NCBI RefSeq assembly: GCF_022848905.1
Contig: NZ_JAFIRA010000035.1
Location: forward strand, 1-42,845
From: Thermostichus vulcanus str. 'Rupite'
GTDB lineage: Bacteria > Cyanobacteriota > Cyanobacteriia > Thermostichales > Thermostichaceae
Reading direction: 5' to 3'
Length of the DNA: 42,845 nt
Every line of letters begins with the position of its first letter. Position 1 is the first letter of the stretch. Below the pieces are notes generated by a model. The model ran no database searches. It was not told the origin of the DNA and saw only the letters and a program-made list of their open reading frames with translations. A program made the position numbers and the translations under genes. Of the stretch, positions 39,143-42,845 are shown in pieces.

Positions 39143-39843
39143 CCTTGCTGCAACTGCAGAATCTCTACAGTGGCTATCGCGGTGTGGACATCCTGAAAGG
39201 GATCCACCTGGAGGTAAAACAGGGGCAAATCGTGGTGATCATCGGCCCCAACGGTGCAGGCAAATCGACGGTGTTGAAATCCCTGTTTGGCTTAGCCACC
39301 ATCCGAGCGGGTAAGGTGCTGTTTCAGGGATCCGACATCACGCATTTGCCAGCCGAGCAATTGGTGCGGCGGGGGATTTGTTTTGTGCCCCAAACTAACA
39401 ATGTCTTTCCTTCCCTTTCGGTGCAAGAAAACCTGGAGATGGGAGCCTTCACTCGGCGGGATAACTACGCCAGTCAATTGGAGCGGGTTTACGAATTATT
39501 TCCTCCCCTGAAAGAGAAACGGCGACAAGCGGCGGGATCCCTGTCGGGAGGGCAGCGGCAAATGGTGGCAATAGGGCGAGCCTTGATGGTGGAGCCGCAG
39601 TTGTTGTTGTTGGATGAGCCGACAGCTGGACTATCCCCGCTGTTTATTGAGCAAACCTTTGCCCTTCTGCAGGATATCAACCGGCTCGGCATCAGTATCT
39701 TGATGGTAGAGCAAAATGCCAAGCAAGCCCTGAGTATGGCAGACTGGGGCTATGTGTTGTCGATGGGGGAAAACCGTTTTGAGGATACCGGCCCCAATCT
39801 GTTAACCAACCCTGAGGTTCTAGAGCTGTTTTTGGGCGGGTGA
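39139..39843 (+). CDS. Branched-chain amino-acid ABC transporter ATPase, LivF type
   Basis: A 234-residue ATPase with Walker A GPNGAGKST, signature LSGGQRQ, Walker B LLLLDEP and the closing MVEQNAK switch region where LivF proteins have a Gln rather than His. The segment FVPQTNNVFPSLSVQENL is typical. It pairs with the upstream LivG-type ATPase (ATGA overlap) as a heterodimer for amino-acid uptake at the inner membrane. The gene ends 29 bases before a MITE-like repeat that leads into the AT-rich region. Confidence 0.92.
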   Translation: MTLLQLQNLYSGYRGVDILKGIHLEVKQGQIVVIIGPNGAGKSTVLKSLFGLATIRAGKVLFQGSDITHLPAEQLVRRGICFVPQTNNVFPSLSVQENLEMGAFTRRDNYASQLERVYELFPPLKEKRRQAAGSLSGGQRQMVAIGRALMVEPQLLLLDEPTAGLSPLFIEQTFALLQDINRLGISILMVEQNAKQALSMADWGYVLSMGENRFEDTGPNLLTNPEVLELFLGG

Positions 39844-39871
39844 TCCCGTTGCTCTGAATTACTCAGCAACT

Positions 39872-40059
39872 TACAGCCCTTTAATGCTCCGCAGTCACGT
39901 GTCGCGTAGCATTAGCGTTGCGTAGCAACAATGCCTACGGCAGGCTGCGCCACCCCAAAAGTGAACGCGGGTTTGTTACAAAACCGGTTGTGTCCCTAGC
40001 CCATTTCGAAAGGGTTCTGGGGATTACCCCTGTGCTAGGTGACTAGCAAAAGAGCTGTA
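39872..40059 (+). repeat. Dispersed MITE-like repeat, copy B (188 bp)
   Basis: Begins with the same TACAGCCCTTTAATGCTCCG as the copies at 5830 and 36657, and ends in AAAGAGCTGTA, one mismatch from its inverted end. It shares GTTGTGTCCCTA, GGGGATTACCCC and GTGCTAGGTGACTA with copy A and GTGAACGCGGGTT with copy C. An internal GC-rich palindromic segment (GTCGCGTAGC...GCGTAGCAAC) is only here. It is noncoding. Confidence 0.75.
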
Positions 40060-40215
40060 AGCCTAACTTTCTTTAACACTGCAACTCCGCTGCTGTAAGT
40101 ATTTGTGGCTTTAATCGATTGTACTTTATGGACAAACATTGACTACTCGGAACTCTTTCACATCCAACTCCAGTAGATGATCTAGTCTAATGATATAAAC
40201 ATAGTTCTCAGGGTA

Positions 40216-40819
40216 TTGATCGTATTCGAGATGAAGACATGTACAATGTTGCTCATTCAGAATCTTGAGGAAAGTATTGAGATAAGCATGCGAAAAGGGC
40301 ATAATCAATATGTGACAGTTATCAGCAATCTAGAGAATCATTGCCTCATTGAGGTGATTGATGCTCACAAGGCGGAAGAGCTTACTGAATACCTAGAAAG
40401 CCTATGGACAGAGGAAGAGAGGCCGAATATCGAAAAGGTTAGCATCGATATTTGGGCTGGATTTGCCAGGGTAGTCAAGCCGGTATTTCCCAAAGCACAT
40501 ATTGTCTATGACAGATTTCATGTGATGCAGAAAGCTGTCAAAGAATTAGACAAACTTAGACGACAGTCTCGACTCATAGAAAAAGGCTCAAGAGGTTCAA
40601 ATAGTTGCATGGATGAAAGATGCTCGGAGAGTCTACACCGATGTGGTGAAAACAATCCAGAATCATCTTCAGGGAATCTGTCAGTATTTTGCCAATCGTG
40701 TGACCAGTGGCATTATGGAGGGAATCAACAACCGGATCAAGGTAATCAAGCGACAAGGGTATGGGTTTACCAACATGACTAACTTCAGAGCTAGATTATT
40801 AGCAGCTTTCTGGCCTTAG
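40216..40819 (+). pseudogene. Decayed ISL3-family transposase
   Basis: Two overlapping frames together encode parts of an ISL3-type DDE transposase. The first (to about 40600) has SMRKGHNQYVTVI, VSIDIWAGFARVVK with a catalytic Asp, and VYDRFHVMQKAVKELDK with the second Asp. After a frameshift near 40600, the second (from about 40613) has VYTDVVKTIQNHLQGICQYF and SGIMEGINNRIKVIKRQGYGF, with the catalytic Glu and the family-typical end. About 100 residues between the two and the N-terminal zinc finger are missing compared with a ~400-residue enzyme, so it is broken and inactive. Upstream bases 40060-40215 hold only traces. Confidence 0.78.
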
Positions 40820-40908
40820 TAATCCTTGATCACCATAAGTCCGGGAGAGCCTCACCCTTGAAGATGAATATGTCAGACATTTGTGCTGTCATGGTTCCTT
40901 CCTTCTAT

Positions 40909-40994
40909 GCCCAACGGTAAAGTTGTGCGGCGGCAAATAACCTTTGCAACACCACCAAGATCTTTCGCCCGTCCGCACTAACGCAGTGTTAGAC
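40909..40994 (-). other. attC-like recombination site after the MtrA-like gene
   Basis: An 86-bp imperfect palindrome on the minus strand, starting 17 bases after the MtrA-like stop. Its outer boxes are GTCTAAC (40994-40988) and GTTGGGC (40915-40909), matching the RYYYAAC and GTTRRRY attC boxes. Inside, the arms GTGCGG-A-CGG and CCGCCGCAC pair, with one extra unpaired base in the left arm (plus-strand T at 40972), the hallmark that sets attC orientation. The orientation fits the gene. No integrase gene is in the window. The sequence features are seen; site function is inferred. Confidence 0.72.
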
Positions 40995-41010
40995 TGCCGT
41001 ACATATATAA

Positions 41011-42141
41011 TTACAAGTCGTGAGAATATGTCTGATCTTGAACATACCTAAATCCCAGTTTCATCGACAGTTCTGCTTTTGCCAACTCCTCACCAAGATA
41101 GGCGGAATGATCTAGCTGAGTCACCCAACCATTTTCAATGATTGCCCAATAAATGCTTCTAGCATTTTTCCCTTCAATCGCCCTCAAGAGTGCGTTGTCG
41201 TATGAATAGTGTTCGACAAGAATGTTGCCCTTGTCAGGTTGTGGAAGAATTACGAAGTAACCTGTTTTATCCATCCGGAACTTTACAGGCTCCTTGGCTT
41301 GAAGGATAGTTGTGCTCGACGACTGTATTGCATCACTCTTACCCTGCTTTGTACAACCACAGGATGAGGATTGTGTTTGTGAGAGTGCTTGCATTTTCTC
41401 AATAATTTTCTCTGTATCTTCACAGCCAATTAGATCGACAACTTGTACCTGCTTCTGAAAAGCTTCTACCTCTTCGTAAGTGACATTCTTTAATAATGGT
41501 CGCTTACCAGGAGAACCAATCACTTTCATGCGATCATCTACTCCATTTTCAGCAAGCGCAAGTAGAGTTTTTCCGCTATAGTGCCCCTCTGAGTCTTTCC
41601 CTGTTAGTAACAAAAAACGAATCGTTGGGTTACTCACAACATTTTTGATAACCTTATCAACTCCAATGTTTTCTGTCTCAGTTTTCCCTACCACACAAAG
41701 TTCTTTAGGTTTAATATTTGCAAGTTGCTCAGCTAGCTCAACGCTAGCAAGTGTTGAAATTGCGACTGGGCAATCTTCACCGTGACAAAGCGCAAAGTAC
41801 TCTCCGGCAACTGGAAAGAGAACATTTTCTCGTACCTCGAAGCCACATCCTGATAAGTGGCTTTGAACAGATTCAGGGAAGGCTTGGTGGAACGAGTTAG
41901 TTGCTACGGCAGGAAAACAATGAGCGCAGCCAATACAGGGATACTGAATTGGCTCCATCTGATTTAACCAATGCTGAGTATCTCTAAGTAAATTCGAGGT
42001 AGTATCAGTCAGATTTGCGGATAGGGTCGTTTCCAAATTTTCTAGCATTTCCTTCATGCAGCCGCATTTCCGACATTTAGCAAAAGACATACCCTCCTGA
42101 AGTTCGGAGTGGATGTGGCTAATATGATTATCTTCTAGCAT
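41011..42141 (-). CDS. MtrA-like corrinoid domain fused to a DUF4346-like domain, with N-terminal cysteine cluster
   Basis: A 376-residue soluble protein in three parts. Residues 15-80 hold two cysteine clusters, C-X2-C-X-C at 23-28 and C-X2-C-X2-C at 69-75 (iron-sulfur or zinc). Residues about 105-250 match MtrA, the corrinoid subunit of methanogen methyl-tetrahydromethanopterin:coenzyme M methyltransferase: TLASVELAEQL, KTETENIGVDKVIKN, NPTIRFLLLTG and EGHYSGKTLLALAENG. His187 in EGHYSG falls at the place of the His that ligates cobalt in MtrA. Residues about 283-372 resemble DUF4346 (GYFVILPQPDKGN, ARSIYWAIIENGW, LGEELAKAE). Cyanobacteria lack this methanogen pathway, so a corrinoid methyl-transfer role in another pathway is the best inference. 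AGGAGGG precedes the ATG. AT-rich; an attC-like site follows. Confidence 0.85.
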   Translation of the reverse strand: MLEDNHISHIHSELQEGMSFAKCRKCGCMKEMLENLETTLSANLTDTTSNLLRDTQHWLNQMEPIQYPCIGCAHCFPAVATNSFHQAFPESVQSHLSGCGFEVRENVLFPVAGEYFALCHGEDCPVAISTLASVELAEQLANIKPKELCVVGKTETENIGVDKVIKNVVSNPTIRFLLLTGKDSEGHYSGKTLLALAENGVDDRMKVIGSPGKRPLLKNVTYEEVEAFQKQVQVVDLIGCEDTEKIIEKMQALSQTQSSSCGCTKQGKSDAIQSSSTTILQAKEPVKFRMDKTGYFVILPQPDKGNILVEHYSYDNALLRAIEGKNARSIYWAIIENGWVTQLDHSAYLGEELAKAELSMKLGFRYVQDQTYSHDL

Positions 42142-42164
42142 CGTTCCCTCCTGTTTTGTTACCC

Positions 42165-42186
42165 ACCACTATTTTGCAATAGTGGT
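42165..42186 (-). promoter_or_regulatory. 9-bp inverted repeat in front of the MtrA-like gene
   Basis: ACCACTATT at 42165-42173 pairs with AATAGTGGT at 42178-42186 across a 4-base centre. It lies about 12 bases upstream of the AGGAGGG ribosome-binding site of the MtrA-like gene, where a repressor operator or leader hairpin would act. AT-rich sequence further upstream could provide a promoter. Confidence 0.5.
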
Positions 42187-42219
42187 CAGACTTCAAGGAT
42201 ATAGGCTGTACAAATCAAT

Positions 42220-42384
42220 TTAACGCTGAACGCATAATATAAAGCCTTCACACCTCCACTGATAATCTTTAAGTTCCTTAATGCTGAACTCTGGCAGATA
42301 GTTTTGAAGCTGCGCCCCTACTGATAACTTAGGCGGTCTAACGTCTGAACTCACCTGCCACCAGGGATCCCTCACCACCGGCAA
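42220..42384 (-). CDS. Possible 54-residue small ORF
   Basis: Read from a TTG at 42384 to TAA at 42220-42222, with PWWQVSSDVRPPK and YLPEFSIKELKDYQWRC. Its ordered, mixed composition looks coding, and it lies between an attC-like palindrome and the MtrA-like gene. It has no recognisable ribosome-binding site and no family I know. It could be the remnant of a cassette gene. It contains one GGGATCCC copy, unlike the gene after it. Confidence 0.3.
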   Translation of the reverse strand: MPVVRDPWWQVSSDVRPPKLSVGAQLQNYLPEFSIKELKDYQWRCEGFILCVQR

Positions 42385-42603: not shown

Positions 42604-42818
42604 GGCGGTTGAATCTTAGACCTACTCAACAAAACCTGAAGCTCTTCAATGCTCAACGGAGGAGAACGGCGATGAATCATGGCATGACAGTTAGGGCACA
42701 CAGGACGTAAATCTTTGAGGCTCTCCTGACATTTTGGTGTCGATAGTATAATGAGATACTGAGTTCCATGACGAACATTGGTTCCTCTTGATAAGTTATT
42801 GGGTCTTGCTGGAGTCAA
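42576..42818 (-). pseudogene. HNH endonuclease C-terminal fragment
   Basis: An open frame of about 80 residues whose middle, DLRPVCPNCHAMIHRRSPPLSIEEL, is the C-terminal part of an HNH nuclease (Cys-X2-Cys zinc site and the final His). The central His-His metal-binding part that should precede it is missing: the upstream residues (TPARPNNLSRGTNVRHGTQYLII) do not look like the family. The frame is open to the window edge at 42845, so the gene may be frameshifted, rearranged, or continue outside. Its last codons run into the attC-like site. Confidence 0.6.
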
Positions 42819-42845
42819 AATCCAAGAGTTTGTAGAGTTAGAACA

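Follow-up and report, generated by a model that had tools for sequence, protein, structure and literature searches.

The Mtr complex and the HgcA/HgcB system are among the described systems closest to the locus studied here. In the Mtr complex, complex-bound MtrA has a C-terminal membrane part, and its residues Tyr18, Glu54, Asn64 and His84 were named as cobamide contacts, with His84 as the cobalt ligand (PMC4915002). In the HgcA/HgcB system, HgcA uses a corrinoid to methylate a metal (PMC11588087); hgcAB was found under ArsR control in a bacterium (PMC10349881), and selenoprotein variants of the system are on record (PMC13188914). Regarding arsenic, incubations of human faecal microbiota methylated it only when methylcobalamin was added, and heat-sterilised microbiota was inactive (PMC2920899).

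The window (the whole stretch of 42,845 nucleotides that was analysed, contig NZ_JAFIRA010000035.1 of Thermostichus vulcanus str. 'Rupite') encodes a predicted corrinoid protein whose features are collected in Table 1. An earlier note on this DNA had read the protein as an MtrA core with a DUF4346 tail and had proposed profile searches for the two families. Both were matched, and no other Pfam family was found in the protein. Over the whole chain, positions 12-370 of 390 of the NCBIfam profile NF002128 (PRK00964.1-6, named 'tetrahydromethanopterin S-methyltransferase subunit A') were aligned to residues 6-371. Since this match is nearly full-length, the MtrA-DUF4346 architecture is that of a named family and no one-off new fusion. 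The window gene is one member of this already named family, although its score of 423 bits lies under the curated NF002128 cut-off of 568. The family name was inherited from MtrA, and NCBI names the family only as 'MtrA'; against the MtrA equivalog TIGR01111 itself the window protein scored 117.6, compared with a cut-off of 249.15. For the analyses below, the wider family was defined by the homologues aligned with the window protein, 65 sequences in total.

Table 1. Predicted features of the corrinoid-protein locus, in coordinates of the window
Feature	Position	Strand	Remarks
MtrA-DUF4346 corrinoid protein (predicted)	41011..42141	-	376 aa, ATG start, intact
Pfam PF04208 MtrA			residues 112-257, E 8.9e-36
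PterinBD-DUF4346 (Pfam PF14251)	41035..41274	-	residues 290-369, E 3.5e-22
MtrA-type B12-binding Rossmann domain (predicted)	41332..41826	-	residues 106-270, structure match
E157, equivalent to MtrA Glu54, which is hydrogen-bonded to the cobalt-ligand His	41671..41673	-	
H187, equivalent to MtrA His84, lower axial cobalt ligand	41581..41583	-	
Cys cluster 1, K22-C28, KCRKCGC (C23, C26, C28)	42058..42078	-	Cys invariant in 65/65
Cys cluster 2, C69-C75, CIGCAHC (C69, C72, C75)	41917..41937	-	Cys invariant in 65/65
Linker CGC motif, C261-C263	41353..41361	-	
AT-rich insert without GGATCC	39844..42364	.	right border approximate
ISL3-family transposase remnant	40216..40782	+	PF01610, E 5.5e-25

The DUF4346 domain was predicted as three strands followed by two helices, with a model pLDDT of 89.8. 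When this model was compared with the PDB no convincing match was obtained, the best one being a ribosomal protein (Z 6.1). The Pfam label 'PterinBD' is therefore unsupported here, and DUF4346 as a proven pterin-binding fold was rejected. Nearly all cyanobacterial relatives searched encode DUF4346 as a separate protein of about 130-180 aa (e.g. L008 1504-1902, minus strand; G000:C62:9843-10022). A role in phage defence was discarded, as PADLOC gave no match, and no riboswitch or other known RNA was detected upstream in the window region or in nine homologous loci.

The AlphaFold2 model of the window protein had a mean pLDDT of 79.8, and the relative placement of its domains was poorly predicted (pTM 0.51). 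Structure prediction, which the earlier note had suggested, supported the corrinoid-binding fold: residues 106-270 superposed on cobalamin-bound MtrA (5LAA) with Z 22.1 and an rmsd of 1.9 over 149 residues, and the next unrelated fold after MtrA reached Z 8.3. By alignment, Y115, E157, N167 and H187 correspond to the four cobamide-contact residues of MtrA, and they were identical in all 65 homologues. The histidine that had been claimed at the cobalt-ligand position is thus confirmed in all aligned homologues. At the position of MtrA Val61 (V164), the aligned sequences displayed I, V or L. The fold match together with the fully conserved contacts makes it very likely that the protein binds a corrinoid, and residues and fold suggest that it may carry out methyl transfer on the cobamide. 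One match from the cyanobacterial phylum (L003 1477-2298, minus strand) was found without the N-terminal Cys region and seemingly with Trp (GWLPG) at the position of the cobalt-ligand His.

The host genome was searched for the partners of such a carrier. MtrH (PF02007) was not found in it and was present in both control methanogens, in line with the view that this is a corrinoid carrier in a cyanobacterium devoid of the Mtr complex. A role as a predicted soluble corrinoid carrier working without that complex is therefore supported. PF03599 (CdhD/HgcA) did not match the window protein, and its sole match in the host genome was located inside metH, below the cut-off. A complete MetH was detected by profile search with 1497 bits.

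The cysteines of both clusters described in the earlier note proved to be invariant in the 65 homologues. Outside of them, C99 was kept in 60 of 65 homologues and a CxC or CC pair occurred in the linker of 48 of 65. An in-frame UGA was found exactly at the codon of C69, the first Cys of CxGCxxC, in six homologues (L064, L085, L088, L090, L091 and L095), and the window copy has TGT at this codon. Five of these copies (L085, L088, L090, L091 and L095) form one clade with Bacillota, and L064 is from a separate deltaproteobacterium. The selB gene was above cut-off in all six genomes with the UGA form and in 8 of 14 tested genomes with the Cys form. The five clade members share GCUGGUCAGC at a distance of 17 nt downstream of the UGA, a place at which the protein has changed to CWSA; this element was not present in L064. 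In a test for a SECIS hairpin, the folding energy downstream of the UGA was not unusual (z-scores about 0). Judging from these sequences, UGA is likely to encode selenocysteine in the five clade members and plausibly does so in L064. The L088 copy belongs to the isolate Sedimentibacter saalensis DSM 13558, and its putative Sec is at codon 67. Further Sec forms were sought in the class of L088, and among 391 genomes only the query genome displayed one.

Substitution by Sec is usually the mark of a reactive thiol. The UGA at the C69 codon suggests a reactive or metal-binding thiol or selenol rather than an ordinary cluster ligand, and this disfavours a purely structural Fe-S role. The earlier note had assigned the N-terminus to an iron-sulfur reactivation domain. 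This assignment found no support, with no Fe-S family matched there in the Pfam search and a probable Sec at C69 in six homologues; an Fe-S cluster is still conceivable.

The gene is located in an insert of about 42% GC, against about 55% elsewhere in the window. The sequence GGATCC occurred 134 times in the window (15.3 expected by chance) and was distributed throughout except in the insert, with zero occurrences between 39541 and 42364, so the reported absence of this site was reproduced. The similarity to the syntenic region of five congeneric genomes broke off right at 39843, where an ABC transporter gene ends, or only slightly earlier, and no match to the window gene was found in that region. 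The congeners searched had no such gene, only the stand-alone DUF4346 protein. The five congeners without the gene, the ISL3 remnant and the AT-rich composition agree with the recent acquisition that had been proposed. The right border of the insert could be placed only approximately due to the contig end. The last 126 bases (42720-42845) were found repeated at about a dozen other places of the same genome, mostly contig ends, and this probably accounts for the end of the contig.

In the tree, the window gene grouped with L017 (a Synechococcales MAG, 83% identity) and L018 (Pleurocapsales, 76%) with 100/100 support, inside a family of many phyla. This placement indicates that the source was probably another cyanobacterium or a shared donor. 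The methanogen origin implied in the earlier note was rejected, since the gene nests with these two cyanobacterial copies within a bacterial and archaeal family. Viral carriage was also rejected, as nothing was found in IMG/VR. Among 386 cyanobacterial genomes sampled, a homologue was present in only one further genome and was divergent, and relatives were found dispersed among about twenty phyla of Bacteria and Archaea. On the basis of these sequences, the family is horizontally spread with a patchy distribution.

The survey of genomic neighbours that the earlier note had called for brought out a metal-resistance context of the family. It comprised 80 loci from one genome scan plus two plasmid loci, 27 of them of Nitrospirota type and 55 others; genes were called by a basic ORF-finding rule, and the same loci supplied the seed proteins. 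Of the 55 loci outside the Nitrospirota-type set, 21 had a recognised metal-resistance gene no more than three ORFs away; the remaining 34, several of which are cut by contig ends, had none within this distance. Metal genes accounted for 30 of 280 near ORFs and 6 of 286 far ORFs in the 55 loci (Fisher p=1.6e-5, an optimistic value because the ORFs share loci and phylogeny). They included ArsR, CadC-like, CsoR and CadR/PbrR-like regulators, P1B ATPases, RND pumps and ArsP-like permeases, and the association was seen repeatedly, in phyla and with gene types that are not related to one another.

Regarding the regulators, an ArsR with the motif ELCVCE was located beside the homologue in L033, L044, L074 and L080, a CadC-like regulator with CKVICFN plus CVCD in L043, L048 and L092, and a CsoR-type protein (PF02583) in L038. 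A CadR-PbrR-like MerR regulator is divergent from the Paraburkholderia copy (148.5 bits, cut-off 151.45). The neighbouring regulators point to several metals and to no single one. In L018 the homologue is followed after 46 bp by a co-oriented gene for a heavy-metal P-type ATPase, and DUF305, DUF302 and multicopper oxidase genes are in the vicinity. In Planococcus plasmids, genes for ArsR, an HMA protein and a P-type ATPase lie directly upstream of the homologue, and L033 is flanked by an ArsP_1 permease, a DsbD-like protein and a weak, sub-threshold ArsD-like protein. The adjoining P1B ATPases displayed APC, CSC or CPS in TM6 and not CPC (L015, L018, L020, L070, L074, L080 and L096). By eye, LspA (signal-peptidase-II-like) proteins two genes upstream in L063 and L070 recall PbrC of lead-resistance operons.

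In the Nitrospirota-type set, no recognised metal gene was close by in any of 27 loci. There, parA follows the homologue in 25 of 27 loci and parB in 26 of 27 (among loci L045-L086); this ParA/ParB link was set aside as functional evidence, being probably the inherited synteny of one clade. In three of these loci (L055, L058 and L066) the Wood-Ljungdahl genes for AcsE, AcsD and AcsC lie divergently upstream. No metal gene was found near L017, nor near the window copy on the short flank before the contig end, and a metal role in the window cyanobacterium is therefore carried over from the family. For the family as a whole, the gene contexts point to a probable role in metal(loid) stress.

A membrane protein with a GCCGSP motif and about four spans predicted by eye, mostly with a Cys-rich tail, adjoins the homologue in eight loci (L031, L036, L038, L040, L057, L080, L089 and L094). 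In six others (L037, L043, L044, L048, L050 and L092) it is fused N-terminally to the corrinoid protein, which suggests that the latter works at the membrane in those organisms. In addition, a small protein with LGC..AC was found beside nine homologues. Representatives of both proteins gave no Pfam family match and no convincing NCBIfam match.

Taken together, we tentatively propose, at somewhat less than an even chance, that the protein is a soluble methyl carrier with a His-ligated corrinoid (B12), that it belongs to a family which has spread horizontally and has metal(loid) resistance as its usual setting, and that it would transfer methyl groups between B12 and a metal(loid). For methyl transfer involving a metal(loid) as such, the chance may come close to even. 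In the proposed mechanism, the gene would be induced by a soft metal(loid), for example As(III), Pb, Cd or Hg, which would enter or be passed on through the membrane Cys protein in the manner of mer operons. The metal(loid) would then be captured by the Cys/Sec cluster, with C69 as the most reactive residue, and a methyl group would be exchanged between the metal(loid) and cobalt. The methyl donor to cobalt would probably be methyl-tetrahydrofolate, with SAM as an alternative, given that AcsE, AcsD and AcsC flank three homologues and that the host has MetH and neither MtrH nor a CdhD/HgcA-type protein. The favoured direction would be methylation of the metal(loid) by CH3-Co(III), with export of the product by the neighbouring pumps, but methylation rather than demethylation is a rather unlikely assignment on its own. 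Corrinoids with a His ligand usually transfer CH3+ to a nucleophile, so that a metal-bound thiolate or As(III) would be a better acceptor than Hg(II). This chemistry also counts against the proposal, since it is more fitting for thiols and As(III) than for Hg(II) or Cd(II).

The anatomy of the protein is nearly as compatible with demethylation. An organometal demethylase would capture a methylated metal(loid) at the Cys/Sec site, Co(I) would take the methyl group, and a pterin would deliver it to C1 metabolism. Anatomy and neighbours are the same for this reading, the conserved thiol or selenol suits metal capture, and the AcsE, AcsD and AcsC proteins beside three homologues could take up the methyl groups. 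However, the neighbouring regulators resemble sensors of inorganic metals, and a non-systematic look recognised no merB/arsI-type organometal gene beside the homologues; such a demethylase is considered unlikely. An equally improbable explanation is a general C1 or methionine methyl carrier, which would act in the way predicted for MtrA as a supplier of core methionine synthases; the metal genes would then be nearby by coincidence or as a sign that a metal-sensitive methyl pathway is being protected. This would account for the three Nitrospirota-type copies next to AcsE, AcsD and AcsC, and MtrA has been predicted as the methyl donor to MesA (PMC7857596). Nevertheless, the complete MetH makes a second route unneeded in the host, no core methionine synthase was recognised beside the homologues in an inspection made without a profile, and metal genes are enriched near the gene. 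A metal-binding chaperone, sensor or sink would have metal bound to the Cys clusters and a corrinoid domain with a redox or structural part to play, but no methyl transfer. It would fit the Cys-rich N-terminus and linker and the metallothionein-like Cys-rich insert of the Planococcus copy, but is quite improbable: all 65 sequences retain the cobalt-ligand His, the Glu paired with it and the other B12 contacts, which favours a working corrinoid chemistry.

No paper on a bacterial MtrA-DUF4346 protein was found in the literature searched, where the link of the family to metal(loid) resistance, the membrane fusion and the Sec variants appear to be undescribed. The main text of a 2026 review on prokaryotic selenoproteins contains no PF04208/PF14251 entry (PMC13188914). 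A possible, decidedly tentative conclusion is that the family represents a widespread, unrecognised B12-dependent system for metal(loid) methylation or demethylation, with a mer-like layout, a corrinoid enzyme, a partly fused membrane protein for metal handling and Sec variants, and with no sequence relationship to HgcAB. The B12 enzyme known for methylating a metal is HgcA. If the proposal is true, there would be a second corrinoid family, unrelated to HgcA, which occurs in aerobes, in cyanobacteria and on plasmids and is associated with resistance to arsenic and heavy metals. It would open a genetic approach to B12-dependent metal(loid) transformations, about whose genes little is known, and would correct a misleading 'methanogenesis' annotation that can be read as a sign of methane metabolism in metagenomes.

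Compared with the known systems, the protein resembles MtrA of the Mtr complex (PF04208, TIGR01111; 5LAA, 5L8X) in its fold and cobalamin ligands. It differs from it in that the C-terminal membrane part is replaced by the soluble DUF4346 domain and N-terminal Cys clusters are added. With HgcA/HgcB the family shares the combination of a corrinoid protein and a Cys-rich metal-handling part, the ArsR-linked regulation and the probable selenoprotein variants, as well as a membrane domain, fused in some MtrA-DUF4346 homologues. In contrast, the cobalt ligand is Cys in HgcA and His here in 65 of 65 sequences, and no HgcB was recognised beside the homologues. In several loci the gene order of regulator, small exported-looking LGC..AC protein, Cys membrane protein and cytoplasmic enzyme is analogous to that of mer operons, in which the regulator is joined by a periplasmic carrier, a Cys membrane protein of MerT/MerC type and a cytoplasmic enzyme. 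Unlike there, neither the small protein nor the membrane protein has a Pfam match, and the cytoplasmic enzyme, a flavin reductase in Mer, is here the corrinoid protein.
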